64,000 nucleotides of DNA, taken from contig NZ_CP094357.1 in assembly GCF_014779555.2 (NCBI RefSeq), forward strand, positions 310,001 through 374,000, written 5' to 3'. The DNA comes from Lysobacter capsici. GTDB lineage: Bacteria > Pseudomonadota > Gammaproteobacteria > Xanthomonadales > Xanthomonadaceae. Position numbers and translations under genes: made by a program. The notes beneath the pieces were generated by a model. It did not search any database, was not told the DNA's origin, and worked only from the letters and a program-made list of their open reading frames with translations. Of this stretch, positions 8,447-51,374 are shown one piece after another (positions within the stretch are counted from its first letter, which is position 1; each line of letters begins with the position of its first letter).

Positions 8447-8692
8447 ATGCCGGAAGATCTTGCGCCAGTGCATCTTGCGATGGCCGGACAATCCGAAGGC
8501 AGGTTCGGCGGCGGTACTTCGCGCTTCCACCAATCTGAAAACACGCTTTATCATCAGCTTGAAATGATGAATATCCTCAATAGCGGACGTGGAAATCTTC
8601 CCACTTTCATCAGGGATATGCCCTTGAAGACGCATCTTCGGGCGTTCACCAATCAAGCCCGAGTGGTCGCCCGTGATCTGGGGGAAATATGA
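8447..8692 (+). CDS. Displaced toxin-tip candidate
   Basis: An 81-residue frame (MPEDLAPVHLAMAGQSEGRF...) begins just after the Rhs fragment stops and overlaps the next start codon by four bases. The C-terminal half (LPTFIRDMPLKTHLRAFTNQ...) looks like a small basic domain. Coupling to the following small gene supports a tip/antidote pair. Family unknown, and it may itself be a remnant. Confidence 0.35.
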   Translation: MPEDLAPVHLAMAGQSEGRFGGGTSRFHQSENTLYHQLEMMNILNSGRGNLPTFIRDMPLKTHLRAFTNQARVVARDLGEI

Positions 8693-37396: not shown

Positions 37397-37592
37397 GTTC
37401 GCTCACCGGGCACGCTTGGGCCGGTTCGGCTGGTTCGCCCGAGTCTCGCCACCGTTGTCGTGTTTGGCCCCCACGGCCCGCGCTTCTCTTTGGAGCGCGG
37501 GCCGTTCGCGTTGCTGAGTCTGCTTCGCTCAGCCAGACGAAATCTTGACGATGCGTATTGACGTGCCCCGCACCGCGACTTACATTGCGGTC

Positions 37593-37620
37593 GAATTGAA
37601 ATAATATAACGTTTCAATTC
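37593..37620. promoter_or_regulatory. Zur-like operator over the promoter of the metallophore locus
   Basis: A perfect 9-bp inverted repeat GAATTGAAA-N10-TTTCAATTC starts 53 bases before the first receptor gene. The 23-base stretch 37593-37615 agrees at 18 of 22 defined positions with the gamma-proteobacterial Zur consensus as I remember it (half sites GAAATGTTATA and TATAACATTTC, one base between). TAATAT at 37602 with TTACAT at 37580 (16-base spacer) could be the -10 and -35, so a bound repressor would block RNA polymerase. Assignment to Zur rather than Fur or another regulator is an inference. Confidence 0.6.
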
Positions 37621-37645
37621 ACACTTCTTCGGGGCGCAGATCACA

Positions 37646-39919
37646 GTGAGCAAATGCAGTCAGGGCGACCGCCCAGGGGCGGTCTACATAGCGCGGGCGA
37701 TGCTCGCGTGCGCGGTCGTGGCGGCCTTGCCGGCCCACGCGCAGGACGTCGCCACGCCCGGCGGTCGGGCCGACACCGCGACCAGTGGCGCGGCCAGCGA
37801 ATCGGCCGGCGGCGCCTCGCCCAAGCTGCTCGACCGGATCACGGTCGAAGGCGTCGCCACCCCGGCGACCTCGCTCGACAGCCCCAACAGCACCGGCTCG
37901 CGGCTGGGCCTGAGCGCGCGCGAGACCCCGGCCATGGTCGAGGTCCTGAGCCAGGACCAGATCCAGGCGCGCGGCCTGCGCGGCAGCGTGGAAGCGCTCA
38001 ACGCCGCGCCCGGGGTGCTGGCCGGGCAACTGCCGTCGTCGCCGGGCATGACCTCGATGCGCGGCTTCAGCGGCGGCGCGATCGCGCTGCTGGTCGATGG
38101 CGTGCGCCAGACGGCGGCGCCGTTGATCACCCGCGACTTCGACAGCTGGAGTTTCGAGCGCATTGAAGTGCTCAAGGGCCCGGCCTCGGTGCTGTACGGC
38201 GAAGGCGCGCTGGCCGGCGCGATCAATCTGGTGCCCAAGCGGCCGAACTTCGACGGCAGTGCGTTTTCCGCGCTGGCCGGCTGGGGCAGCTTCGGTAGCC
38301 AGCGTTATGCGCTCGACGCGAACTTGCCGGTCGGCGACGACCTCGCCCTGCGCGCGGTCGTCAGCCGTCGCAGCGGCGACGGCTATGTCGACGGCACCGC
38401 CAGCGATGCGACCTCGGCCACTGTGGCCGCGCTCTGGAAGCCGAGCGACACGCTCGACATCGACATCGCCCTGGATCACTTCGAGGACGACTACGACACC
38501 GCGTACTGGGGCACGCCGCTGATCCCGGCGGCGATCGCGCGCGATCCCAGCGGCCTGGTCCGCACCGGCAACGGTCTGGTGCTGGACAAGGCCATTGCCG
38601 ACCGCAACTACAACGTCGGCAACGGCGTGCAGGGCGGGCGCAGCGACTGGTTGCGCACGCGGGTCGCCTGGCAGCTCGGCGACGGCCTGCGTTTCAGCAA
38701 CGAATTCAGTTATTACGACGCGCATCGGCGCTGGTTGAATTCGGAGACGTATACCTACAACGGGCGCAGCGGCTTGCTCGATCGCGGCACCACCCGGATC
38801 GAGCACGATCATCAGTTCTGGAACGAGCGGGCGACGCTGTTCTCGGACGCGATCATCGGCGGGCGGCGCAACCGGGCTTCGGTTGGGGTCGAATTCACCG
38901 ACGGCGACTTCGCGGTGATGCGCCGTTTCGGCACCACCACCGCGGTCGATCCGTTCGCGCCGGTACGCGGCCAGGTTTCTTTCGACGACAACGCGATCAA
39001 TTTCCCGGGCGCCGGCAATCGGGTCGATTTCGATTCGAATACGCGGGTGGCGTCGTTGTTCCTCGAAGACGCGCTCAACCTGACCCCGCGCTGGCTGCTG
39101 CTGGCCGGGCTGCGCTACGACCGGATCGAACTCGAACGCAGCATCCGCGACTTGAACACCGGCAGCGTGAGCCGCTTCGAACGTCGCTACGAGCCCTTGT
39201 CGTGGCGACTGGGCACGGTGTTCGATCTGACGCCGAAGACGCAGCTGTTCGCCCAGTACAGCGAAGCGGTCGCGCCGGTCGGCAGCCTGCCGTTGCTGTC
39301 GTTGGCGAACTCGCGGTTCGAGTTGACCCACGGCCGCGCGGTCGATGTCGGAATCAAGAGTTCGTTCTGGCAGGACCGCGTCGATCTGAGTCTGGGCGGT
39401 TACTGGATCGAACAGGACGATATCGTCACCCGCGACCCGGCCAACGCCAATGTGTCGATCCAGGGCGGCCGGCAATCCTCGCGCGGCATCGAGCTGTCGG
39501 CCTCGGCCGCGCTGACCCGCGCGCTGCGGGTGGACGCGAGCGTGGCGGTGCTGGATGCGCGCTTCGATGAGCTGCGCGAGGCCGGCGGCGTGAATCGCGC
39601 CGGCAATGTTCCGCCGAACGTGCCCGAACGCGTGGCCAACCTGTTCGCGAGTTATCGCTTCGAAGGCGTGCCCATCACCCTCGGCGGCGGCGCGCGTCAT
39701 GTCGGCGCGTTCTACACCAACAACGCCAACAGCATCCGCGTCGCCGCGCACACGGTGTGGGACGCGTCGGTCGCGTACCGCTTGCCGTTCGGCGAGATCG
39801 CGCTGTTCGGACGCAATCTGACCGACGAGTTTTACGCCGACTGGTCCGGAGGCGCGACCGACCAGATCGTGATCGGCGCGCCGCGCAGCGTCGAGCTGAC
39901 TTTCAAGGTGAATCTATGA
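37646..39919 (+). CDS. TonB-dependent siderophore-type receptor
   Basis: A 757-residue outer-membrane receptor. Signal peptide to about residue 33 (ending PAHAQ), TonB-box-like DRITVEG, plug domain with LSARETPAMVEVLSQDQIQA, GMTSMRGFSGGAIALLVDGV and SFERIEVLKGPASVLYGEGA, then a 22-strand barrel ending VELTFKVNL. The plug is typical of FhuE/FpvA-type siderophore receptors. GTG 37646 is the start; the stop overlaps the next ATG by four bases. It is first in the locus behind the Zur-like box, so it probably brings in the metal complex of the compound made downstream. Confidence 0.88.
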   Translation: MSKCSQGDRPGAVYIARAMLACAVVAALPAHAQDVATPGGRADTATSGAASESAGGASPKLLDRITVEGVATPATSLDSPNSTGSRLGLSARETPAMVEVLSQDQIQARGLRGSVEALNAAPGVLAGQLPSSPGMTSMRGFSGGAIALLVDGVRQTAAPLITRDFDSWSFERIEVLKGPASVLYGEGALAGAINLVPKRPNFDGSAFSALAGWGSFGSQRYALDANLPVGDDLALRAVVSRRSGDGYVDGTASDATSATVAALWKPSDTLDIDIALDHFEDDYDTAYWGTPLIPAAIARDPSGLVRTGNGLVLDKAIADRNYNVGNGVQGGRSDWLRTRVAWQLGDGLRFSNEFSYYDAHRRWLNSETYTYNGRSGLLDRGTTRIEHDHQFWNERATLFSDAIIGGRRNRASVGVEFTDGDFAVMRRFGTTTAVDPFAPVRGQVSFDDNAINFPGAGNRVDFDSNTRVASLFLEDALNLTPRWLLLAGLRYDRIELERSIRDLNTGSVSRFERRYEPLSWRLGTVFDLTPKTQLFAQYSEAVAPVGSLPLLSLANSRFELTHGRAVDVGIKSSFWQDRVDLSLGGYWIEQDDIVTRDPANANVSIQGGRQSSRGIELSASAALTRALRVDASVAVLDARFDELREAGGVNRAGNVPPNVPERVANLFASYRFEGVPITLGGGARHVGAFYTNNANSIRVAAHTVWDASVAYRLPFGEIALFGRNLTDEFYADWSGGATDQIVIGAPRSVELTFKVNL

Positions 39920-40674
39920 GCCTGTTGCAAGCGCCGCCGAGCCCGCGGCAAACCCCGACCTTGCAGATCCATGCGGTGCGCAAGGACTTCGGCGACCGGC
40001 ATGCGCTGGAGGCCTTGTCGATGACGATCGCGCCGGGCGAGGTGTACGCCTTGCTCGGCCCGAACGGCGCGGGCAAGACCACCACGCTCAATCTGATCCT
40101 GGGTTTTCTGACGCCCGAGTCGGGCCATATCGAAGTCGCCGACGTGCGCGTGGAACGCGATCCGCTGGGCGCGCGCGCCAAGATCGCGTACTTGCCGGAA
40201 ACGGTGATGCTGCATCCGACCCTGAGCGCGATCGAGAACCTGAGCTACTTCGCCCTGCTCGGCGGACGCCGGCTCGACGAGGCGCAGGCGCGCGCGTTGC
40301 TCAGCGAAGCGGGCTTGCAGGACGAAGCGCATGCGCGTCGCGCCGCCGGTTTTTCCAAGGGCATGCGGCAAAAAGTCGGGCTGGCGATCGCGCTGGCCAA
40401 GAACGCGCAACTGCTGTTGCTGGACGAACCGACCTCGGGCCTGGACGCGAGCGCGGCCAACGATCTGTCGCAGGGCGTACGAGCGGCGTCGCGGCGCGGC
40501 ATCGCGGTGTTGATGGCGACCCACGATCTGTATCGGGTCAAAGACGTCGCCCATCGGCTCGGCATCCTGCGCGCCGGCCGATTGCTGACCGAGCGCCACA
40601 CCGCCGAGTTGTCGGCCGCGCAGATCGAGTCCTTGTATCTCGAATTGCTGGCGGTGGACGGGCAGGCCGCATGA
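39916..40674 (+). CDS. ABC transporter ATP-binding protein (ABC-2 type)
   Basis: A 252-residue ATPase with Walker A GPNGAGKT (48-55), signature FSKGMRQK, Walker B LLLLDEPTSGLD and switch His in MATHDLYR. The signature is a variant of LSGGQ, as is common in NosF-like ABC-2 systems. It overlaps the receptor stop and the following permease start, so the three are coupled. Together with two permeases it forms a full transporter; ABC-2 systems usually export, but a role in metal or metallophore handling at the inner membrane is likely here. Confidence 0.9.
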   Translation: MSLLQAPPSPRQTPTLQIHAVRKDFGDRHALEALSMTIAPGEVYALLGPNGAGKTTTLNLILGFLTPESGHIEVADVRVERDPLGARAKIAYLPETVMLHPTLSAIENLSYFALLGGRRLDEAQARALLSEAGLQDEAHARRAAGFSKGMRQKVGLAIALAKNAQLLLLDEPTSGLDASAANDLSQGVRAASRRGIAVLMATHDLYRVKDVAHRLGILRAGRLLTERHTAELSAAQIESLYLELLAVDGQAA

Positions 40675-42074
40675 GCGCGTCGCTGACCCGCTTCGAGTGG
40701 ACCTTGCTGCGCCGCGACCGGCGCGCGTGGTGGGCGTTGCTGTGCCTGGGCGCGCTGGTGCTGATCGCGTTCGCGGTCGATCTGTCGGCGATCGCCGGCG
40801 CCAACGCGGCCAAGGCCGAGGTCGCCCACGCCGAACGCGCGCGCTGGCTCGGCCAGGGCGAGAAAGATCCGCATTCGGCCGCGCACTACAGCATCTTCGC
40901 GTTCAAGCCCACGCCGGTGCTGGCCGCGCTCGATCTGGGCGTGGAGCCCTTCGTCGGCCAGACCGTGTGGCTGGAGGCGCACGTGCAGAACGACATGCTG
41001 TATCGGCCGCAAGGCGACGCCTCGGCCTTGCAACGCGCCGGTCTCACAAGTCCGGCCGGATTGCTGATCGGGTTCGCGCCGCTGGTCGCGTTCCTGCTCG
41101 CGTTCACCGCGGTGGCGATGGACCGCGAACGCGGCACCTTGCGGCTGGCGCTCGGCGCGGCGTTGCGGCCGCGCGCGATCGTGATGAGCAAGGCGCTGGC
41201 GATCTGGCTGGCTTTGGTCGCGACCTTGGTCGCGCCGGTGACGCTCGCGGCGACGATCGCGGCGGCGGCGCTGGACGCGTTCGACGGCGATATCGCGCTG
41301 CGGCTGTTGCTATGGGCCGGTGCGATGTCGCTGTATCTCGCGGTGCTGACCGCGGTCGGGGTGACAGTATCGATGCTGGCCGGCAGCGTGCGCGGCGCGC
41401 TCGCGCTGCTGTTCGGGCTGTGGATCGTGTTCGGCCTGGCCTTGCCGCGCTGGGCCAACAGCGCGGTCGAACGCGCGCAGCCGCTGCCGTCGTCGCAGGC
41501 GGTCAAGCAGCAGTTGATCGATCAGGCGCCGTCGTTCTGGACCGCCGAGGACGCGAAGAAACATCAGGCCGCCTTGCTGGCCAAGTACGGCGCACGCAGC
41601 AAGCAGGAGCTGAGCGTGGACTTGCGCGGCGCCGAGCTGGATCTGAGCGAGCGTCATTCGCACGAAGTCTTCGATCGCGTGCTCGGCGGCTTCTACGACC
41701 AGGTCGAAGCGCAGGACCGCGCCTATGCCGCGATGGGCTGGCTGTCGCCGATGGCGGCGATGCAGAGTCTGTCGCCGCTGCTCGCCGGCAGCGACTTCGT
41801 CCATCACCGCGGTTTCATCGACGGCGCCGAGCGTTACCGCCGCGCCCTGGTCAATCGCATGAATCAGGACGTGATGGCGCATCCGCTCAACGGCGAACAG
41901 GCGCGACACACCGCCGGCGAATCGCTGTGGGCGCAGATACCCGAGTTCCGCCATCAACCGCCGCGTCTGGGCGCGGCATGGGGCAATGCCGCCGCGGCGC
42001 TGTTCGCATTGCTGGGCTGGAGCGTGCTGGCCTTGGCCGGGTTGCTGTGGACGGCGCGGAGGATGAAGCCATGA
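40671..42074 (+). CDS. ABC-2 permease, DUF3526-type, first copy
   Basis: A 467-residue membrane protein. One span at the N-terminus (WWALLCLGALVLIAFAVDLS), a large non-membrane loop, then a cluster of spans (LLIGFAPLVAFLLAFTAVAM, IWLALVATLVAPVTLAATIA, GALALLFGLWIVFGLALPRW) and a final C-terminal span (WSVLALAGLLWTARR). Two large extracytoplasmic segments are characteristic of the DUF3526 group. Start ATG overlaps the ATPase stop; its own stop overlaps the second permease. Confidence 0.82.
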   Translation: MSASLTRFEWTLLRRDRRAWWALLCLGALVLIAFAVDLSAIAGANAAKAEVAHAERARWLGQGEKDPHSAAHYSIFAFKPTPVLAALDLGVEPFVGQTVWLEAHVQNDMLYRPQGDASALQRAGLTSPAGLLIGFAPLVAFLLAFTAVAMDRERGTLRLALGAALRPRAIVMSKALAIWLALVATLVAPVTLAATIAAAALDAFDGDIALRLLLWAGAMSLYLAVLTAVGVTVSMLAGSVRGALALLFGLWIVFGLALPRWANSAVERAQPLPSSQAVKQQLIDQAPSFWTAEDAKKHQAALLAKYGARSKQELSVDLRGAELDLSERHSHEVFDRVLGGFYDQVEAQDRAYAAMGWLSPMAAMQSLSPLLAGSDFVHHRGFIDGAERYRRALVNRMNQDVMAHPLNGEQARHTAGESLWAQIPEFRHQPPRLGAAWGNAAAALFALLGWSVLALAGLLWTARRMKP

Positions 42075-43606
42075 GCGCGATCGCACACGAGGCCGGTCGC
42101 TTGCGCGCGGCCGAGACCGCGCCGGTGACGGTGGGTTTCAGCACGCTGCTGGCCTGGGAACTGCGCCATATCGGCCGCCAGCGCCTGCTGTGGATGGTGC
42201 TGGTGTTGCTCGGCCTGGCGATGCTGTGGGGCGCGTACAGCGGCGCGAGCCTGCATCGCGCGCAGACCGCGGCGATCGCGCGCAGTCACGCCGCCGATGC
42301 GGCCTGGACCGCGCAGATCCGCGAGCGCGCGCGCCGCTATGCCGAGCCGGCCGAAAGCCCGGTGCCGTATTGGCAGGACCCGACCGACGTGGCCGGTTTC
42401 AGCCGCTATTTCCTGCGCGCGCAGAGCGACAAGCCGCATCTGCCGTTGTCGCCGCTCGCGGTCGGGATCAGCGACCTGATGCCCAGCCGCCTGCCGGTCA
42501 AGCTGGAAACGCCGTTCGGCGCCGAGCCCGCGTACGACTTCGAAAATCCGCGCGGGCTCGGGCTCGGCCGGTTCGATCTGGGCTTCGTGCTGATCTATCT
42601 GTTGCCGGTGGCGACGATCCTGTTGATCGGTCTGCTGTCCACGTTCGAACGCGATCACGGCATGTTGCGGCTGATCGCCGCGCAGCGGGTCGGGCCGCGG
42701 GCGTGGCTCGGCGCGCGCGTCGCCGCGATCTTCGCCTGGCTCGCGCCGGCGACGCTGGCGTTGTTGTTGTTGAGTCTGTTGTTCGCCGGGGTCGACGCGA
42801 CTGCGGCGATGCCGGAACTGTTCGCGTCGGCGGCACTGGTGGTGGCCTACCTGTCGTTCTGGGCCACGCTGGGATTCGTCGTGGTGTCGGCATGGCCCAG
42901 CGCCGCCGGCGCGATCAGCCTGATGGGCGCGCTGTGGGCGGCGCTGGTGATCGGTGTGCCGCTGCTCGGCAGCGCATGGGCCGATCGTCTGGGCGATGCG
43001 CCTACGCCGGTGGCCTATGTCGATGCGCAACGCCGCGCCAACGATGCGATCGGCAGCGAGCGCGACGCGATCGTGACCGCGATGTTTCGCGCGCGCGCCG
43101 ATCTGGCCGCAGCGACCGATCGCGTCGCGAAGATCGATTACGCGACCCGCATGACCTTCCTGGCGCCCGAGCTGGAGCGACGGCTGGCGCCGTTGCGCGA
43201 TCGTCAGCTGGCGGCGCGCGCGGCGCGCGAACGCGTGTCGGACTGGGCCGGCTATGTGTCGCCGTCGCTCGGCCTGGAGCAGGCGCTGTCGGTGCTCGCC
43301 GGCACCGACAGCGATCGGCATCGGCGTTTCGAGCAGCAGACCCGCGCCTACCAGCTGCGCCTGCGCGATTGGTTCTATCCGCGCATCCAGCGCGAGATCG
43401 CCACGCCGACGCCGCGACCGCCCAACAGCTACGGACGAATGAACTTCGCCGAGTACGACGCCATCCCGGTCTACCTCGGCGCCGAACTGCCGGCGTCGGC
43501 GCGGGTCGCCGCGACCTTGCCGTTCGCGGCCTGGCTGTTGCTGTTGGCCGCGCTGCTGACCGGCTTGGCGTTGCGGCGGTTGCGGCGCTGGCCGACGGAG
43601 CTTTGA
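42071..43606 (+). CDS. ABC-2 permease, DUF3526-type, second copy
   Basis: A 511-residue permease of the same layout as its neighbour: LLWMVLVLLGLAMLWGAYSG, periplasmic loop, then FVLIYLLPVATILLIGLLST, LAPATLALLLLSLLFAG, ALVVAYLSFWATLGFVVVSA, and a closing span WLLLLAALLTGLALRRL. The two permeases would pair as a heterodimer with the ATPase. It contains YDFENPRGLGLGRFDLGF before the first main span, a block seen in DUF3526 proteins. The next receptor gene starts four bases after the stop. Confidence 0.82.
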   Translation: MSAIAHEAGRLRAAETAPVTVGFSTLLAWELRHIGRQRLLWMVLVLLGLAMLWGAYSGASLHRAQTAAIARSHAADAAWTAQIRERARRYAEPAESPVPYWQDPTDVAGFSRYFLRAQSDKPHLPLSPLAVGISDLMPSRLPVKLETPFGAEPAYDFENPRGLGLGRFDLGFVLIYLLPVATILLIGLLSTFERDHGMLRLIAAQRVGPRAWLGARVAAIFAWLAPATLALLLLSLLFAGVDATAAMPELFASAALVVAYLSFWATLGFVVVSAWPSAAGAISLMGALWAALVIGVPLLGSAWADRLGDAPTPVAYVDAQRRANDAIGSERDAIVTAMFRARADLAAATDRVAKIDYATRMTFLAPELERRLAPLRDRQLAARAARERVSDWAGYVSPSLGLEQALSVLAGTDSDRHRRFEQQTRAYQLRLRDWFYPRIQREIATPTPRPPNSYGRMNFAEYDAIPVYLGAELPASARVAATLPFAAWLLLLAALLTGLALRRLRRWPTEL

Positions 43607-43609
43607 TCG

Positions 43610-45547
43610 ATGAAACAACGTCATGGATGGATCTGGAGTCTGAGCGGCGCGCTGGCCCTGGCCGGCAGCGCGCACGCGCAGCGCGCCGGCGACAACGCGG
43701 TGACCGCGGCCGAGGACGCGTTCGGCGCGACCCTCGGCAACGAAACCATCGGCCTGTACAGCAGCAAGCAAGTGCGCGGATTTTCGCCGGTGGACGCCGG
43801 CAACGTGCGCATGGACGGGGTGTACTTCGATCGCCAGGGCACGGTGCCGCCGGCGCTGGTCGAAGGCTCCACCATCCGGGTCGGTCTGTCGGCGCTGAAC
43901 TATCCGTTCCCGGCGCCGACCGGCATCGTCGACTATCGCTTGAAGAAGGCCGGCGACGAACGCGTGATCAGCGTGCTCGCCGCGCTCAATGCCTACGGCG
44001 CGCCGGCGCTGGAACTGGATGCGAAACTGCCGATCGTCGATCAGCGCTTCGGCCTGGCCGGCAATATCTCGTTCGCGCGCGAGGAGTACTACGACGGCGC
44101 CGATGCGCGCTATGTGCGCGCCGGCCTGGTGCCGCGCTGGCGGCCGACCGAGAACATCGAGATCCTGCCGTTCTGGAGCATCTCGCGCGGCCGCGACGAA
44201 GAGGTCGCGCCGACCATCATCACCTCGGGCAATCACCTGCCGCCGAAGATCGCGCGGCGTCGGCATTTCGGCCAGAGCTGGTCGGACAACGAATACGACA
44301 GCCGCAACTACGGCGTGCTCGGCAAGGCGCGCTTCGGCAACAACTGGGCGCTGGCCGGCGGCGTGTTCCGTTCGATCAACAACCAGCCCAGCGGCTTTGC
44401 CGAATTGTTCGTCGAAACCACAGCCGATGGCATGACCCGCGAGAAGGTGATCGCCGATCCGCGCCAGCGCTACGCCTCGACCAGCGGCGAGTTGCGCCTG
44501 AGCCGCAGTTTCAGCGAAGGCCCGCGCCTGCACGTGCTGCATCTGGCGCTGCGCGGGCGCAGTCTCGACAGCGAGTACGGCGGCTCGGCCGACGCGATCG
44601 ATTACGGCTGGCGCCGGCTCGGCGAACCGCGGCCGATGCCTCAACCCGACAGTTTCGAATTCGGCGCGCGCACCCGCGATCACGTCGAACAATGGACCGG
44701 CGGGCTGGCCTACGAAGGCCGTTGGCGCGATGTCGGCGAGTTGAGCGTCGGCGTGCAGCGCAGTCGCTATCGCAAGAGCGTCGATCAACCTGGTCTGCCG
44801 CGCACCTCGTCGCGCGACGATCCGTGGCTGCCGAACGCGACCGCGTCGGTGTACTTGAACAAGTCGCTGGCCTTGTACGCCGGCCACACCCGTGGCCTGG
44901 AGGAAAGCGGGATCGCGCCGGACGACGCGGCCAACCGCAACCAGGCGCTGGCGGCGATCCGCACCCGCCAGACCGACGCCGGCCTGCGCTGGGCCTTCGC
45001 CGACAACATGAAACTGGTGGCCGGCGCGTTCGACGTGCGCAAGCCGTACTTCACCACCGACGAGAACAACGTGTATGGCGCGATCGGCGAAGTGCGCCAT
45101 CGCGGGCTCGAGCTGAGCCTGAGCGGACGGCCGATCGACAGCCTGAGCCTGGTCGCCGGCGCGGTGCTGATGCGTCCGCGCGTGAGCGGCGAAGCGGTGC
45201 GGCTGGGGCGCGTCGGCGATCGTCCGATCGGCCAGACCGAACGGGTGCTGCGCAGCGATCTGGAGTACCGCCCGCCGATGCTGCCGGGCTGGTCGTTCGA
45301 TCTGGCGATGAGCCACTACGGCGAACGCGTCGCCTCGCGCGACGGCTTCAACCGGGTGCCGGCCTACACCCTGGTCGATGTCGGCGCGCGCTATCGCTTC
45401 AAGCTCGGTTCGGCGCCGGCGAGCTTGCGCCTGCTGGTCGCCAACGCGGGCGACACCTACACCTGGACCATCTACGGCAACAACAGTTTCGGCCTGACCG
45501 ACGGGCGGCGCTACGTGGCGCAGCTGGCGGTGGATTTCGACGGCTGA
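43610..45547 (+). CDS. Second TonB-dependent receptor
   Basis: A 645-residue outer-membrane receptor with signal peptide (GALALAGSAHAQ). The plug is shorter than usual (SSKQVRGFSPVDAGNVRMDG, STIRVGLSALNYPFPAPTGI) and no clear TonB box is visible. The barrel is complete and ends QLAVDFDG, a weak C-terminal signature. It differs strongly from the first receptor, so the locus has two receptor types, perhaps for two forms of ligand. Same strand and spacing as the rest of the operon. Confidence 0.82.
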   Translation: MKQRHGWIWSLSGALALAGSAHAQRAGDNAVTAAEDAFGATLGNETIGLYSSKQVRGFSPVDAGNVRMDGVYFDRQGTVPPALVEGSTIRVGLSALNYPFPAPTGIVDYRLKKAGDERVISVLAALNAYGAPALELDAKLPIVDQRFGLAGNISFAREEYYDGADARYVRAGLVPRWRPTENIEILPFWSISRGRDEEVAPTIITSGNHLPPKIARRRHFGQSWSDNEYDSRNYGVLGKARFGNNWALAGGVFRSINNQPSGFAELFVETTADGMTREKVIADPRQRYASTSGELRLSRSFSEGPRLHVLHLALRGRSLDSEYGGSADAIDYGWRRLGEPRPMPQPDSFEFGARTRDHVEQWTGGLAYEGRWRDVGELSVGVQRSRYRKSVDQPGLPRTSSRDDPWLPNATASVYLNKSLALYAGHTRGLEESGIAPDDAANRNQALAAIRTRQTDAGLRWAFADNMKLVAGAFDVRKPYFTTDENNVYGAIGEVRHRGLELSLSGRPIDSLSLVAGAVLMRPRVSGEAVRLGRVGDRPIGQTERVLRSDLEYRPPMLPGWSFDLAMSHYGERVASRDGFNRVPAYTLVDVGARYRFKLGSAPASLRLLVANAGDTYTWTIYGNNSFGLTDGRRYVAQLAVDFDG

Positions 45548-45573
45548 CCGATCCACAACGGGGAGACGTGGCG

Positions 45574-46566
45574 ATGCTGCGGCAGCAATACATCGGTGGC
45601 TTTCAACGCGGCATGCCGGCGGCGCCGGACGGGACATGCGCGGGTTCGGCAAGCGGCGAGGCGGGTTACGCCGAATCGGCGGCCGCGGCGTCGCGTCATG
45701 CATCGGCCGCGATCTGCAGCGGCGTGTGTCACGGCACCCTGGGCGAATTGCTGCAGGGGCCGTACGAACACGACGGCGAGTTGCATATCGGCCTGATCTC
45801 GCTGCCGGTGCGCAAATACAGCTGGATGCATTTCACGCCGGGCGAGGCGGGCGATATCGAGGCCGAGCTGGCCGGCAAGGACAAATGCCGGCGCGCGATC
45901 GAGCTGTATCTGCGGCATTACGGCAAGCGCTTGCCGGCCGGGCGCTGGAGCCACGATTCGGAATTGCTGCTCGGCAAGGGCATGGCCAGCTCCACCGCCG
46001 ACTTGGTCGCGACGATCCGCTGCCTGGACCGGATCTTCGGCCTGCATTCGCCGGCGCCGGTGATCGCCGCGCTGCTGCGCGAAATCGAACGTTCCGACAG
46101 TGTGTTTCTCGACACCCATGCGCTATACCTCAGCGGCCGCCAGGAAATCGTGCGCGCGTTCGATGCGCCGGTGCGGCTGCACGCGTGCTACATCGACGAA
46201 GGCGGCACGGTCGAGACCGAGAAGGTCGCCCATCCCTTGCTCGCCCACTACCAGCGCAATCTGGCGGCGTACCGGCATAACCTCGATCGCGCGATCGACG
46301 CCTTCGCCCGCCACGATCTGCGCCGTATCTGCGAATGCTCCACGCGCAGCGCCGAACTGGCGCAGGGCGTGATCGCCAAGCGTCATTTCGAGGTGTTGCT
46401 CGAACGCCAGCGCGATTTCGCCGCCGACGGCATCGTCGTCGCCCACACCGGCAGCCTGCTCGGCTATCTGTTCATCGCCCGCCCCGATCCGGCGCGCATG
46501 GGCGAGCTGTCGTCCTTCTTCCGCGGCCTGGGTCACCAGTGCCGCTTCGCCGAGACGGGGTTGTGA
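45574..46566 (+). CDS. GHMP-family kinase, PduX-like (L-threonine/serine kinase candidate)
   Basis: A 330-residue kinase. CHGTLGELLQGP (52-63) and LLGKGMASSTADL (132-144) match the nucleotide-binding motifs of PduX, the L-threonine kinase of cobalamin synthesis; SDSVFLD follows, comparable to the substrate loop. No cobalamin genes are nearby. Next to a cysteine-synthase-like enzyme, the likely product is O-phospho-L-serine or O-phospho-L-threonine used as an activated side chain. GGGGAG ribosome site; residues 1-45 are Ala-rich and unlike the family, so a later start such as ATG 45613 is possible. The stop overlaps the next ATG. Confidence 0.8.
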   Translation: MLRQQYIGGFQRGMPAAPDGTCAGSASGEAGYAESAAAASRHASAAICSGVCHGTLGELLQGPYEHDGELHIGLISLPVRKYSWMHFTPGEAGDIEAELAGKDKCRRAIELYLRHYGKRLPAGRWSHDSELLLGKGMASSTADLVATIRCLDRIFGLHSPAPVIAALLREIERSDSVFLDTHALYLSGRQEIVRAFDAPVRLHACYIDEGGTVETEKVAHPLLAHYQRNLAAYRHNLDRAIDAFARHDLRRICECSTRSAELAQGVIAKRHFEVLLERQRDFAADGIVVAHTGSLLGYLFIARPDPARMGELSSFFRGLGHQCRFAETGL

Positions 46567-47627
46567 TGACCGTGCATGCGCATATCGCCGACGCGATCAA
46601 GGTGCCCGATCTGGTGCGGCTCGGGCCGAACCTGTACGTGGCCCGCTTCGAAACCATGAAGGTGTACTCGACCCTGGTCGCGGTCGAGCGCCTGCTCGCC
46701 GATGGCCGCATACAACCTGGCGCGACCTTGATGGACAGCTCCAGCGGCATCTACGCCTACGCGCTGGCGCTGGCCTGTCACAAGTTCGGACTCAAGTGCC
46801 ACATCGTCGGCTCCAAGACCGTCGACAAGACCTTGATGCTGCAACTGCGCATCCTCGGCGCGACCATCGAGCAGGTCGAGCCGCGGGCGACCTTGAAGAT
46901 GGATCAGAGCCTGCGGGTGGCGCGCATCCGCGAGTTGCTGGATGCCGATCCCTCGGTGCACTGGATGCAGCAATACCACGACGACATCCACTACGACGGC
47001 TACGAGCCGGTGGCGCAACTGCTGCTCGATTCGATCGGCGGCGCGGCGCTGAGCGTGATCGGCGGGGTGGGCTCGGGTTGCTCGACCGGCGGACTGGCGC
47101 GCGCGTTGCGCGCGCACGATCCCGCGGTCGAACTGATCGGCGTGCAGCCGTTCGGCAGCATGACCTTCGGCTGCCAGCACATCGAAGATCCCGGCATCAT
47201 CATCGCCGGCATCGGCAGCTCGATCCCGTTCCGCAACGTGCGCCACGGGCTGTACGACGAGATCCATTGGGTGTCGTTCGACTATGGCCTGTCGGGATCG
47301 ATCGCGCTGCTGCGCGAGCACGCGGTGTTCGCCGGCCTGTCGACCGGCTGCTGCTATCTGGTCGCGCAACGCGAGGCGGCGCTGCGGCCCGAACGCAACA
47401 TCGTGTTTCTCGCCGCCGACACCGGCCATCGCTATGTCGATGGCGTGTTCGCTCAGCACGAACAGGCGCTGGCCTTGTCCGATCTGCAACCCACGCGCAT
47501 CGATTCGCTCGATCGGCTGGTGCTGCCGTGGTCGGCGATGGCGTGGCGGCGCGCCGATTTCGACGACCAGGCGCCCGCGCCGCAAGTCCTTCCCCTTCCG
47601 GCGCCTTCGCTTGCCGCCGTTTCCTGA
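46566..47627 (+). CDS. PLP-dependent cysteine-synthase-family enzyme (SbnA-like)
   Basis: A 353-residue fold-type II PLP enzyme. Lys32 in FETMKVYSTLVAVERLLADG is the candidate Schiff-base lysine, SSSGIYAYALA (58-68) replaces the usual TSGNTG loop, GGVGSGCSTGGL (166-177) is the phosphate loop, and GLSTGCCYL corresponds to GxSxGAAL. SbnA and related enzymes swap the phosphate of O-phosphoserine for an amine to reach 2,3-diaminopropionate. The four-base overlap with the kinase gene suggests that the kinase makes the substrate. The altered SSSGIYA loop points to an unusual substrate. Confidence 0.8.
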   Translation: MTVHAHIADAIKVPDLVRLGPNLYVARFETMKVYSTLVAVERLLADGRIQPGATLMDSSSGIYAYALALACHKFGLKCHIVGSKTVDKTLMLQLRILGATIEQVEPRATLKMDQSLRVARIRELLDADPSVHWMQQYHDDIHYDGYEPVAQLLLDSIGGAALSVIGGVGSGCSTGGLARALRAHDPAVELIGVQPFGSMTFGCQHIEDPGIIIAGIGSSIPFRNVRHGLYDEIHWVSFDYGLSGSIALLREHAVFAGLSTGCCYLVAQREAALRPERNIVFLAADTGHRYVDGVFAQHEQALALSDLQPTRIDSLDRLVLPWSAMAWRRADFDDQAPAPQVLPLPAPSLAAVS

Positions 47628-47651
47628 TTCCCCTCCTGGAGCACTATCGCC

Positions 47652-48920
47652 ATGGCGCATTTCTTGATGATCGAAAGCTGGGTCGGCGGCACCGGCCGGA
47701 TATTTCCGCCCGCGATCGGCCGGCTCGGCCATCGCTACACCTTCGTGACCCGCAACCGCGGTCATTATCTGGATGCGCGCTCGCGCGAGATCCATCCGGT
47801 GATCGAACACGCCGAACACGTGTTGACCACCGAGACCAATGACGTGCCGGCGCTGATCGAATTCCTGCGCGCGCAGCACGCGATCCTGAAGTTCGATGGC
47901 GTGGTGACGATCTGCGATTACTACATCGACACCGTGGCCCAGGTCGCGCAGGCGCTCGGCCTGCCGCAGGCGTTTTCGGCCAATGTGGTGATGGAGCGGC
48001 GCAAGGATCAGGTGCGCGAGGCGATCGAGCGCGCGGGCCTGCCGAATCCTAAGTTCGCGGTGACCGCGTCGTGGGACGAAACCCGTCGCGAAGCACAGCG
48101 GATCGGCTATCCCTTGATCGTCAAGCCGACCGACCTGGCCTCGAGTGCGTTCGTGCGTCTGATCCACGACGAAGGCGAGTTACGCCAATCCTTCGATGCG
48201 CTGGAGCAGTTCCCGCGCAACTTCCGCGACCAGGCGCGGGTGCCGCTGCTGTTGCTGGAGGAGTACATGCTCGGCGAAGAGGTCAGCGTGGAGGCGTGCA
48301 CCTATCGCGGCCGCACCACGGTCATCGGCATCACCGACAAGAGCGTGACCGGGTTTCCGTATTTCATCGAGGACGGGCATATGTTCCCGGCCAAACTCGA
48401 CCCGGCCCGGGCCACGGCGATCGAAGCGCTGGTATGCGGCGCGCTGGAGGCGGTCGGGCACGATCACGGCATCAGCCATACCGAGGTGAAACTCACCGCG
48501 AATGGGCCGCGCATCGTCGAGATCAATCCGCGTCCGGGCGGCAACTACATCGCCGAGCTGATCCAGCGGGTGACCGGTATCGATTTGCTCGACGCGCAGA
48601 TCGAGCTGGCGTTGGGTCGCGAACCGGATCTGACGCGCAAGCCGACCGGCGTGGCGAGCGCGGCGATCAAGTTCCTGGTGCCGCCGCGCGCGGGGCATGT
48701 CGCCACGGTCGATGGGGTGGCGTCGTTGGACACCGATCCGGCGGTGCAGCGATGGAGTCTGTCGCCGATCGCGGGCAGCGAGGTCGCCGCGCCGATCGAT
48801 AACGCTTGTTATCTGGGGCATGTGGTCGCGGTCGACAGAGAGGGCCTGGAGGCGCGCGCGTATGCCGAGCGTGCGTTGGGGCGGGTGGTGTTGCATTACG
48901 CCGAGGCTGTTGCGGCGTGA
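47652..48920 (+). CDS. ATP-grasp amino-acid ligase
   Basis: A 422-residue ATP-grasp enzyme. Lys158 in PLIVKPTDLASS and LLLLEEYMLGEEVSVEA bind ATP; Glu278 (HTEVK) and Glu290-Asn292 (VEINPRPGGNYI) bind magnesium. The layout fits L-amino-acid ligases that join a carboxylate to an amine through an acyl phosphate. In this operon it would link a diamino acid from the PLP enzyme to another acid or amino acid. CTGGAGC ribosome site. No peptide carrier protein is present, so the product should be a free small molecule. Confidence 0.85.
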   Translation: MAHFLMIESWVGGTGRIFPPAIGRLGHRYTFVTRNRGHYLDARSREIHPVIEHAEHVLTTETNDVPALIEFLRAQHAILKFDGVVTICDYYIDTVAQVAQALGLPQAFSANVVMERRKDQVREAIERAGLPNPKFAVTASWDETRREAQRIGYPLIVKPTDLASSAFVRLIHDEGELRQSFDALEQFPRNFRDQARVPLLLLEEYMLGEEVSVEACTYRGRTTVIGITDKSVTGFPYFIEDGHMFPAKLDPARATAIEALVCGALEAVGHDHGISHTEVKLTANGPRIVEINPRPGGNYIAELIQRVTGIDLLDAQIELALGREPDLTRKPTGVASAAIKFLVPPRAGHVATVDGVASLDTDPAVQRWSLSPIAGSEVAAPIDNACYLGHVVAVDREGLEARAYAERALGRVVLHYAEAVAA

Positions 48921-48954
48921 TGCGTCTCTCGTAGTCACCAAGCCCCTTCGTACT

Positions 48955-49090
48955 GCTTTTCCCCCCTTTGTAAAAGGGGGTAGGGGGGATTCGCTTTTGC
49001 TCCTGCTCTAAAAGCAACAGAAGCGGCGACGGCAACAGCAACGGCAACAGCGAATCCCCCCTACCCCCCTTTTACAAAGGGGGGAAAAGC
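48955..49090. repeat. Long inverted repeat inside the metallophore locus
   Basis: The arms at 48955-48994 and 49050-49090 are reverse complements over 40 bases with one single-base indel; each starts GCTTTTCCCCCCTTTGTAAA or its complement. The 55-base loop and the flank carry CAACGG-type hexamer repeats. It fills the 292-base gap between the ATP-grasp and DUF364-like genes, with no gene inside. It may stabilise the upstream transcript or reduce downstream expression. Confidence 0.85.
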
Positions 49091-49212
49091 AACGGCAACC
49101 GCAACAACAACGGCAACAACAAAGCGAAAAGCACCGCGGCCGCATCAGTGGCCCACCAGCCATCAATCCGCTTCGCCCACATCGCCCCAACCGCCAAACT
49201 CCGAGACCCACC

Positions 49213-50073
49213 ATGCCCACCGCCACCCAGTCCCTCTCCCACACCTCCGTCGCCGACCTAACCGCCTCCGTACTGCGCGGCGATTACGGCGACGACCCGG
49301 CGCAGCTGCATGCGGTGGGCGCGTTCTGGGTCCGCCAGAGCACCCAGTTCCCCGGCACCGACACCAAGTACCGCAACTACTACCTGGTGCTGCGGGTGGA
49401 ATCGGGTTTCGGCGGCTGTTGCGTCGAACGCGATCAGCTCGATTCGGTGATCGCCGAAGAACTGTCCGGCCGCAGCGTCGCCGAGCTGCTGCGCGATGAA
49501 CGCACGCCGGTGCGGATCGCCGCGCTCGATGCCTATCTGTCGCTGGTGCGGCCGCACCGCGAGGCCGCGCGGGCGCAGGTGTTCATGCTGCCGCACGGCA
49601 CGCCGCTGCAGCGCGCGAAGGCGCGCGATCAGGCGATCGCCAGTCTGCTGCGGATCGAGCCGGGCATGCGGGTGGGTTTGATCGGCGTGGTCAATCCGCT
49701 GGTCGATGCGATCCGCGCGCATGGCGGGATTTGCTTGCCTTGCGACTTCAATATGGAGCGGACGGCCGACGGGACTGAAGTAGTTAAAGACATGGCGCTT
49801 GTTTTGGCGCAGGCCGACTTGGTCATCGCCACCGGCATGACCCTGAGCAATGGTTCGTTCGACGAGATCCTCAGCGCCACGCGCTTGCGCAATATTCCGC
49901 TGATCGTCTACGCGCAGACCGGCAGCGCGATCGTGCCGCGTTTCCTCGGCGACGGCGTGGCCGCGGTGTCGGCCGAACCGTTTCCGTTCTCGCAGTTCAG
50001 CGCCGATCCCACCCCGATCCATCTGTATCGCGCCGAAGGCTTCGCCGCCGGCGATGCGCGCGTGGCGGCCTGA
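49213..50073 (+). CDS. DUF364/DUF4213-like Rossmann protein, putative metal handling
   Basis: A 286-residue cytosolic protein. The C-terminal part has the pattern of the family labelled putative heavy-metal chelation (DUF364): VGLIGVVNPLVDAIRAHG, CDFN, ADLVIATGMTLSNGSFDEIL, IPLIVYAQTGSAIVPRFLGD, then FPFSQFS. Cysteines at 69-70 (GFGGCCVERD) and 174/177 (CLPCDFN) could bind a metal. In this operon it may insert, release or sense the metal, or act as a dehydrogenase-like biosynthetic enzyme. Family membership is by motif memory; function in general is unproven. Confidence 0.65.
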   Translation: MPTATQSLSHTSVADLTASVLRGDYGDDPAQLHAVGAFWVRQSTQFPGTDTKYRNYYLVLRVESGFGGCCVERDQLDSVIAEELSGRSVAELLRDERTPVRIAALDAYLSLVRPHREAARAQVFMLPHGTPLQRAKARDQAIASLLRIEPGMRVGLIGVVNPLVDAIRAHGGICLPCDFNMERTADGTEVVKDMALVLAQADLVIATGMTLSNGSFDEILSATRLRNIPLIVYAQTGSAIVPRFLGDGVAAVSAEPFPFSQFSADPTPIHLYRAEGFAAGDARVAA

Positions 50074-50082
50074 GGGCGCGAG

Positions 50083-51318
50083 GTGGAGGCGACGTCGGTG
50101 GCGATCGATGAAGGCGCGACGCTGAGCGAAGCCGCGCGGCGTCGCGGATTGCATGGTTTGCTGGTTTACACCTTTCTCATGGTGACCGGCTTCGCCATGC
50201 TCATGCCGCTGGTCGCGGTGCACTTCGTCAACGACCTGGGCATGGCGGCCGCGGCGGTGGGGCTGGCGTTGGCGGTGCGGCAACTGACCCAGCAAGGGCT
50301 GGCCCTGATCGGCGGCGTGTTGTCGGATCGCTACGGCGCGCGGCGAATGATCTGCCTGGGCGTGTTGCTGCGCGCCGCGGGTTTCGCCAGCCTCGCGTTC
50401 GCCGACGCATTGCCGATGCTGCTGTGCGCGATGCTGCTGTCGGCGCTGGGCGGGGCCATGTTCGAAGCGCCGTATCAGGCCTCGATCGCCGCGCTGACCG
50501 ACGAAAACACGCGGCCGCGCTATTACGCGATCAGCAACTGGATCAGCGGCGTGGCAACCACGCTGGGGCCGCTGCTGGGCGTGGCCCTGCTGCATTACGA
50601 CTTCCGTGTGGTGTGCCTGGCGGCGGCGGCCTGCTTCGCGGTGAATTTTCTGGTGGCGCTGCGCCTGCCGCAGGTGCGCATGCCCGACCGACCGCCGCCT
50701 CTGCGGCATGGGCTGGATCTGGTGCGCGGCAACCGCGCCTTCATCGTGCTGGTCGGCTTGATGATGTTGTATTGGTTCGTCGCGGTGCAGATCAACATCA
50801 GCTTCCCGCTGCTGGCGCAGCGCCTGACCGGCACGGTCGACAGCGTCGGGGTGATGTTCGCGCTCAGCGCCGGGCTGACGGTGGCGCTGCAATACGGCCT
50901 GGTGCGCTGGCTGGAGCGGCGCTGGAGCAGCGCGCAGGTGCTGGTGGCCGGGGTGGTGGTGATGTCGCTCGCGGCCGGCGCGATCGGCCTGGTGCGCGAC
51001 TTCGCCGGCCTGCTGATCTGCGTGGGCGCGTTCTCCATCGGCGCGCTGATGACCCGGCCCACCCAACAGACCTTGATCGCCGGCCTCGCCGATCCGCGCG
51101 CGCTGGGCACCTTCCTCGGCGTGAGTTCGCTCAGCCTCGCGGTCGGCGGCGGCATCGGCAATATCGCCGGCGGCTGGATGGTCGATCTGGCGGCGACGAA
51201 GCAATGGCCGTGGCTGCCGTGGGCGGTGTTTTGCGTGGTCGGTCTGGCCAGTGCGTTCGGCCTGCATCAGGCGACGCGTGTACGTCGCGAGCGCGCGCCG
51301 GTCGTCGCCGAATCCTGA
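50083..51318 (+). CDS. MFS transporter, probable metallophore exporter
   Basis: A 411-residue major-facilitator protein with about 12 spans, starting at GTG 50083. The motif-A region is LSDRYGARRMICLGVLLRAAG, with RxG in loop 2-3. A second half repeat begins near FIVLVGLMMLYWFVAVQINI. Siderophore loci often end with an MFS pump that exports the product. A strong terminator lies 21 bases downstream, which ends the operon. Confidence 0.85.
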   Translation: MEATSVAIDEGATLSEAARRRGLHGLLVYTFLMVTGFAMLMPLVAVHFVNDLGMAAAAVGLALAVRQLTQQGLALIGGVLSDRYGARRMICLGVLLRAAGFASLAFADALPMLLCAMLLSALGGAMFEAPYQASIAALTDENTRPRYYAISNWISGVATTLGPLLGVALLHYDFRVVCLAAAACFAVNFLVALRLPQVRMPDRPPPLRHGLDLVRGNRAFIVLVGLMMLYWFVAVQINISFPLLAQRLTGTVDSVGVMFALSAGLTVALQYGLVRWLERRWSSAQVLVAGVVVMSLAAGAIGLVRDFAGLLICVGAFSIGALMTRPTQQTLIAGLADPRALGTFLGVSSLSLAVGGGIGNIAGGWMVDLAATKQWPWLPWAVFCVVGLASAFGLHQATRVRRERAPVVAES

Positions 51319-51338
51319 TTTCCCCTCGTGCTGCAATT

Positions 51339-51374
51339 GCCCTCTCCGCAATCCGGGCGGAGGGGGCTTTTTTT
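51339..51374 (+). terminator. Rho-independent terminator of the metallophore operon
   Basis: Stem GCCCTCTCCGC / GCGGAGGGGGC with a short loop, followed by seven T, 21 bases after the MFS stop. Confidence 0.9.

Follow-up and report, generated by a model that had tools for sequence, protein, structure and literature searches.

What does a ten-gene operon of Lysobacter capsici make, and for which metal? The operon lies in a stretch of 64,000 nucleotides (the window; positions 310001-374000 of the 6.24 Mb single-contig genome), and encodes TonB-dependent receptors, transporters and a set of small-molecule enzymes. From the sequence we consider it quite probable that this is a Zur-repressed metallophore system, most likely for a zincophore, that employs neither a nonribosomal peptide synthetase (NRPS) nor a nicotianamine synthase. 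We base this on a Zur motif that is unique in the genome, on a Zur-like protein encoded in the same genome, on conservation of the operon, and on the association of its enzyme core with importers and Zur boxes in other phyla. A first-pass annotation of this DNA had proposed a zinc-responsive locus that makes, exports and recovers a chelator, and the operator and the conservation of the operon lend that proposal support.

The predicted operator, a Zur-like protein and the operon

Upstream of the first gene there is a palindrome, GAATTGAAATAATATAACGTTTCAATTC, that contains at 37597-37616 an exact copy of the E. coli Zur motif, given as TRWNAYRWTATAWYRTNWCA in an excerpt of PMC6103462. On scanning all 6.24 Mb this is the sole place at which the motif is found with up to one mismatch, and the reversed pattern used as a control had no match genome-wide. 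The order-0 chance expectation per strand is 0.0007 at the composition of the window and 0.05 at 50% guanine-cytosine (GC) content. A 23-base Zur consensus, relaxed at two positions, identifies the same single place. The Zur-like palindrome noted in the first pass therefore contains an exact motif with one location in the genome. A promoter lies immediately 5' of the palindrome, so that Zur bound there would be expected to sit over the start of transcription. The operon is probably switched on by zinc starvation, where zinc is assigned from regulation only, by way of the predicted Zur operator.

The genome encodes two proteins of the FUR family, one of which passes the Fur model. The second is matched by the NCBIfam Zur model at 3.7e-42, with a score of 143.9 that lies below the cut-off of 167. 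Among solved structures this Zur-like protein is closest to 7DH7 (1.3e-68), followed by E. coli Zur, 4MTD (6.3e-35). The former is listed merely as a Fur-family regulator, and we take it to be the Xanthomonas Zur.

The ten genes all lie on the + strand between promoter and terminator, spanning 37646-51318 with overlapping or short junctions, and their coding frames are backed by a GC-frame plot (Table 1). Both the order of the genes and their domains, from open reading frames (ORFs) and Pfam, are as first described, and the strong terminator at the end has its run of T. The ATP-binding cassette (ABC) transporter of the ABC-2 type is resolved into an ATPase and two DUF3526-type permeases. Thus an exporter, an outer-membrane receptor and biosynthetic enzymes are all found within one operon. 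Scans with Pfam and family models matched no NRPS adenylation or thiolation domain among the ten genes, and neither the nicotianamine-synthase-like CntL nor the opine dehydrogenase CntM family was matched there, in keeping with the earlier description of the locus as free of NRPS and nicotianamine synthase.

The operon is conserved among close relatives. The DUF364 protein (g9) was found in 10 of 198 genomes of the family, comprising eight of the nine members of the genus, our own included, and two of another genus. A search with the pyridoxal phosphate (PLP) enzyme g7 at 1e-60 returned the same 10 genomes. Among named relatives, the closest one identified is Lysobacter sp. Root690, whose DUF364 protein is 98% identical. 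We fetched nine relatives, chosen by their DUF364 match, and the order of all ten genes is kept in every one. When the 450 bases 5' of g1 are read on the strand of the operon, eight of the 10 genomes (the window and seven relatives) have the Zur motif without mismatch. The two genomes of the second genus carry it with one and two mismatches, and one has an exact copy on the opposite strand.

Two further features were considered and set aside. The inverted repeat that the first-pass annotation placed in the main gap, between g8 and g9, is real, but it is probably incidental. Its arms CCCCCTTTTNCAAAGGGGG recur elsewhere in the genome (L002:1236-1254) and the gap shrinks to tens of bases in several relatives, and we therefore regard it as a dispersed palindromic element and reject it as a regulatory part. 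We also asked if loss of ZnuA might be a sign of its replacement by the operon. ZnuA was found in none of the 10 genomes with the operon and in 23 of the 188 others (p = 0.61). Its absence is uninformative because it is also absent from 165 of the 188 genomes without the operon. Over all the family genomes sampled, including our own, ZnuA was not found in 175 of 198.

Table 1. Features of the Lysobacter capsici operon, in window coordinates, with the evidence for each
Feature	Position	Strand	Evidence and remarks
sigma70-like promoter, TTGACG-17-TACATT	37558..37586	+	9/12 consensus; shuffles mean 0.1
Zur-type operator palindrome (predicted)	37593..37620	.	exact E. coli Zur motif within it
g1, TonB-dependent siderophore-type receptor	37646..39919	+	Pfam; TIGR01783, 257.6 against a cut-off of 223.5 (passes)
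g2, ABC ATPase	39916..40674	+	Pfam
g3, ABC-2/DUF3526 permease	40671..42074	+	Pfam
g4, DUF3526 permease	42071..43606	+	Pfam
g5, TonB-dependent receptor barrel	43610..45547	+	Pfam; no Plug-domain match
g6, GHMP-family small-molecule kinase	45574..46566	+	Pfam GHMP_kinases_N
g7, SbnA/cysteine-synthase-like PLP enzyme	46566..47627	+	Pfam, NCBIfam, clade profile against structures
g8, ATP-grasp ligase (L-amino-acid-ligase-like)	47652..48920	+	Pfam; nearest solved structure 3VOT
inverted repeat in the g8-g9 gap	48954..49091	.	dispersed element, probably outside the system
g9, DUF364 protein	49213..50073	+	Pfam PF04016; profile match to DUF364 structure 3NPG
g10, exporter of the major facilitator superfamily (MFS), MdtH-like	50083..51318	+	Pfam; MdtH model score below cut-off
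intrinsic terminator	51339..51367	+	hairpin with T-run

The enzymes and a proposed route to a chelator

By its fold, the PLP enzyme g7 is a member of the cysteine-synthase family, and the profile of its clade matches SbnA structures best (3.6e-24). Against TIGR03945, the curated equivalog for SbnA (2,3-diaminopropionate synthase), g7 itself scores 134.8 bits, below the cut-off of 349.95. The 22 homologues aligned with g7 are 55-83% identical to it, and in the comparison with SbnA the lysine regions are aligned, SMKDRPA of SbnA with TMKVYSA, the lysine of which is presumably catalytic. The ligase g8 is nearest to the L-amino acid ligases, and also resembles BacD and, weakly, dapdiamide synthase. 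The kinase g6 contains the residues GMASSTAD, which we take to be the GHMP signature motif. It has a generic GHMP_kinases_N domain together with weak generic kinase matches, no PduX-specific match, and no convincing match in a comparison with the PDB. Kinship with PduX, as first suggested, was thus not confirmed, and the domain is what is supported.

The DUF364 protein g9 scores 39.0 bits against Pfam DUF364 (PF04016), above the gathering cut-off of 23. Its profile matches the structure 3NPG at 2.3e-4, with 3L5O not among the four matches; it is therefore a member of the family by the Pfam cut-off, yet distant from the solved members. According to an excerpt of PMC2954201, the authors of the DUF364 structure drew on it and on the genes nearby to propose that the protein takes part in making metal chelators, and they pointed out that its C-terminal domain has NAD-binding-like homology.

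We can outline how such a system might operate. When zinc is scarce, Zur would leave the operator, and the kinase could then convert a hydroxy-amino acid (for example serine, threonine or homoserine) to an activated phosphate ester. By similarity to SbnA, the PLP enzyme would swap the phosphate for an amine nucleophile to create a diamino or imino-diacid unit, to which the ATP-grasp ligase may attach a further amino acid via an amide bond. The DUF364 protein might perform a further condensation or reduction. The MFS protein would export the chelator and the TonB receptors would recover its metal complex, with the ABC-2 module providing either an inner-membrane step or a second exporter.

The kind of system is known, in that NRPS-independent metallophores have been described, and there is a real chance that this is a distinct class. 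Ethylenediamine disuccinic acid (EDDS) is a chelator under Zur-mediated zinc repression, according to an excerpt of PMC9252823. Zur-controlled chelators of this general kind therefore exist. [S,S]-EDDS (aes) and ethylenediaminesuccinic acid hydroxyarginine (EDHA) are aminopolycarboxylate metallophores of actinomycetes that, like the proposed product of the operon, arise by NRPS-free, SbnA-type chemistry. The EDDS gene set comprises SbnA-, SbnB- and argininosuccinate-lyase-like enzymes and is not known to include DUF364 or a GHMP kinase, whereas the Lysobacter operon encodes both of these, and an ATP-grasp ligase as well. The opine-like zincophores (staphylopine, pseudopaline and bacillopaline) are also zinc-linked small chelators, with an exporter and an Opp- or FecCD-type importer. 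An excerpt of PMC7438024 describes their synthesis by a nicotianamine synthase of the CntL type together with an opine dehydrogenase, and their use of FecCD or Opp-type importers, actinomycetes included. Neither enzyme family was matched in the operon, while both types of importer occur near relatives of the Lysobacter core. The staphyloferrin B precursor pathway (SbnA/SbnB) resembles the operon in that the g7 clade profile is closest to SbnA structures, and differs in that neither SbnB nor a siderophore synthetase family was matched among the ten genes and g7 falls short of the SbnA cut-off. Finally, the match of g8 to PRK02186 (ATP-grasp/argininosuccinate-lyase), with a score below cut-off, covers positions 1-398 of the 890 in the model, and g8 stops short of what we take to be the lyase half. 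The first-pass annotation knew of no described pathway with this enzyme set, and our search agrees with this: by title and start of abstract we found no paper on this gene set in the open-licence literature, a check within which the primary EDDS and EDHA papers did not fall.

The enzyme core and its metal signals in other phyla

We scanned 84,980 species genomes with a profile of the DUF364 alignment, giving 312 confirmed relatives, and examined the best 80 loci. These are 22 proteobacterial or similar (including one labelled Acidobacteria and one labelled Bacillus), 46 actinobacterial, six Firmicutes and six other loci, with gene content assigned by best-hit labels of the ORFs. On balance we favour the view, held less firmly than that of the Lysobacter operon itself, that they represent an undescribed, cross-phylum class of zincophores independent of NRPS and nicotianamine synthase, with members in Lysobacter, Streptomyces, Kribbella, Paenibacillus, Sulfitobacter and others. 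It would be built on a PLP enzyme like SbnA and on a DUF364 protein of new catalytic function, with lineage-specific additions of kinase, ATP-grasp, methyltransferase and hydroxylase, and with importers exchanged to fit the cell envelope.

Of the 80 loci, 75 have an SbnA/cysteine-synthase-like PLP gene close by. It is missing from L040, L068, L070 and L073, all four cut by a contig end, and from L094. The PLP enzyme is divergent in 10 loci (three Herpetosiphon, six Firmicutes and Tannerella), where it is 22-28% identical to g7. An ATP-grasp relative is present in 32 loci, one of which (L068, 35% identity) is doubtful. Among the 22 proteobacterial loci, 17 have an ORF labelled DUF364; the label is missing from five Massilia loci because there the best hit of that ORF is ATP-grasp or MFS. 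At L043:8720-10792, in the one of these five Massilia loci that was scanned with Pfam, ATP-grasp and DUF364 are found in one fused protein, and at L048:6561-8492 (- strand) kinase and PLP enzyme are fused as one ORF. There is no tblastn match to g6 in 41 of the 80 loci, including all six Firmicutes, and other kinase queries label more of the actinobacterial loci (24 of 46). The kinase therefore seems to be optional. The shared minimal core is the PLP enzyme with DUF364. An optional kinase would fit the use of O-phosphoserine from primary metabolism.

The divergence of the enzymes is correlated between loci. Mantel r for pairwise divergence is 0.78 for DUF364 and PLP enzyme (71 loci), 0.84 for DUF364 and ATP-grasp (32 loci), 0.95 for PLP enzyme and kinase (33 loci) and 0.93 for DUF364 and kinase (33 loci). 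This is expected of a module, although shared ancestry alone also raises r. All-against-all clustering of the ORFs of the 80 loci was swamped by antisense ORFs, and pointed only to importers and the CobW family.

In 69 of the 80 loci the flanks contain a binding-protein importer or a TonB receptor, a raw count without a background rate. The loci that lack one are L040, L051-L053, L062, L063, L066, L070, L085, L091 and L098, several of them cut by contig ends. In Proteobacteria the importers are TonB receptors, mostly alongside ABC-2 genes; in actinobacteria they are of FecCD or Opp/Nik type, and in Firmicutes and Sulfitobacter of Opp/Nik type.

Boxes of the Zur type accompany the core in several lineages. 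Sixteen genomes (15 of the 22 proteobacterial and Sulfitobacter, in part overlapping the family set) were searched whole for the E. coli Zur motif, and eight have an exact copy, at one place each, directly 5' of g1 in seven and of the ATP-grasp gene in L048. Within the 22 proteobacterial loci themselves the motif is found in one, because the 10 kb flanks end before the promoter in most of them; in these loci neither the Zur nor the Fur consensus is clearly above shuffles. The S. coelicolor Zur motif, derived by chromatin immunoprecipitation (excerpt of PMC5472717), is exact in 16 of the 46 actinobacterial loci and in none of 5 x 46 shuffles. Some of the actinobacterial Zur-type sites fall inside coding sequence. 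A looser 15-base Zur consensus is present at 11/14 or better in 39 of the 46 loci against 2/46 shuffled, and at 12/14 or better in 33 against none. A Firmicutes Zur-type box, TCGTAATNATTACGA, occurs with at most two mismatches in four of six loci against 1/30 shuffled, and is exact in Saccharibacillus L081, directly 5' of the ATP-grasp gene. In Sulfitobacter L092, GTTATACTATAAC lies directly 5' of the gene for the binding protein, and a palindrome related to it is found 5' of the kinase. The Herpetosiphon loci contain the core, with no convincing Zur box seen in them. A search for the enzyme neighbourhood in other genomes, together with receptors and Zur boxes, had been put forward as a check in the first pass, and its outcome is favourable.

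Genes of zinc metabolism also lie near the core in some loci, ZigA-like in six of the 80 and znuA in two. In Paenibacillus L104 the neighbours of the core are ZnuA, a permease of the ABC-3 type and two proteins of the CobW family; the one CobW-family protein scanned is nearest to ZigA, at 540.4 below the cut-off of 600. The binding proteins of L104 and L092 are NikA/CntA-related and that of L096 is NikA-related, all below cut-offs. Downstream of the core in Cohnella L076 is a FUR-family regulator that, at a threshold of 1e-20, has a single NCBIfam match, to a Fur model and below cut-off.

If this is a class of zincophores, small-molecule scavenging of zinc would be far wider than one would judge from EDDS and the opine-like zincophores, and would extend to soil genera that are common. 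A subfamily of DUF364 would receive its first function, in a family for which the structure paper of 2010 could do no more than suggest one, and genomes could be mined for new chelators by the combination of PLP enzyme, DUF364, importer and Zur box.

Iron, an antibiotic or a supply of amino acids

A number of observations weigh against a zincophore. A Zur regulon with one detectable box is unusual, the single L31 gene of the genome has no obvious Zur box, the Lysobacter operon encodes no conventional inner-membrane metallophore importer, and one of the nine members of the genus lacks the operon. The importer count has the limit stated above. Moreover, eight of the 16 genomes searched whole have no exact Zur motif, these being the metagenome-assembled genomes (MAGs) L038 and L039, Massilia L043 and L044, Tahibacter L047, the Sphingomonas-like L049 and L050, and Sulfitobacter L092. 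Three further points concern iron directly. Massilia loci carry Fur-like sites of the GATAAT..ATTATC type 5' of the ABC genes and 5' of the kinase (L043:6660-6690 and the T-b intergenic region, and also in L044, L045, L046 and L086). In Bacillaceae L075 there are two TGATAATGATTATCA palindromes 5' of the cluster (8520-8534 and 8674-8688), which we take to be Bacillus Fur-type sites. An E. coli-type Fur consensus at 13/19 or better is found in 33 of the 46 actinobacterial loci and in none of 46 shuffled.

The alternative that these last points favour is a metallophore that serves the cell for iron, or for more than one metal, with Zur and Fur control re-wired among lineages. We hold this to be unlikely but worthy of serious consideration; it disputes only the metal, and so shares part of its probability with the zincophore. 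The Fur-like sites of Massilia suggest that there the same core enzymes have come under the control of another metal, and with L075 they make the use of iron possible in at least two lineages. Many Streptomyces loci have FecCD-type siderophore importers, and g1 passes a siderophore-receptor model. FecCD importers also accompany opine-like zincophores, however (excerpt of PMC7438024). The E. coli Zur motif is exact in Lysobacter and the S. coelicolor one in 16 of the 46 actinobacterial loci, four of the six Firmicutes loci have their Zur-type box, and the znuA and ZigA-like genes also point to zinc. In addition, IdeR boxes are not above shuffles in actinobacteria, reaching 10-12/19 in all 46 loci and 10-13 in shuffled sequence. 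Motif scores alone cannot fully part Zur from Fur, because their palindromes overlap in sequence.

We consider it improbable that the product is a dipeptide antibiotic based on diaminopropionate or diaminobutyrate, in the style of dapdiamide or bacilysin, that is exported by the MFS protein and taken up as a Trojan horse via TonB receptors. The SbnA-like PLP enzyme and the resemblance of g8 to L-amino acid ligases, BacD and dapdiamide synthase would suit such a product, as would a streptomycete locus (L006) in which DUF364 stands beside a dipeptide epimerase and a methyltransferase, with a P450 further off. Yet importers and boxes of the Zur type turn up repeatedly in phyla that are unrelated, the importers are kept beside the enzymes in the producers, and no self-resistance enzyme was recognised among the ten genes, although the MFS pump could serve.

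It is very doubtful that the enzymes supply a modified amino acid to another pathway with the TonB and ABC genes as co-regulated passengers, for which the known kinase-PLP pairs that make 2,3-diaminobutyrate for peptide antibiotics would be a precedent, as the ten genes are found as one set both in the window and in all nine relatives, and importers of different families replace each other around the same core.

Some individual loci carry further features. A PhyH-type hydroxylase lies between the PLP gene and DUF364 at L091:9159-9935, and its relatives are found in 11 of the 80 loci, all actinobacterial; it may provide a tailoring step. The streptomycete locus L006 is on plasmid p1 of Streptomyces angustmyceticus, where ATP-grasp, DUF364, cysteine-synthase-like, dipeptide epimerase, MFS and methyltransferase genes lie together with the P450 a few kb off, possibly an antibiotic offshoot of the same core. 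Lastly, L049, labelled Bacillus sp. 2B10, is a TonB/ABC-2 locus laid out like that of the Sphingomonas MAG L050, and may be mislabelled or contaminated.

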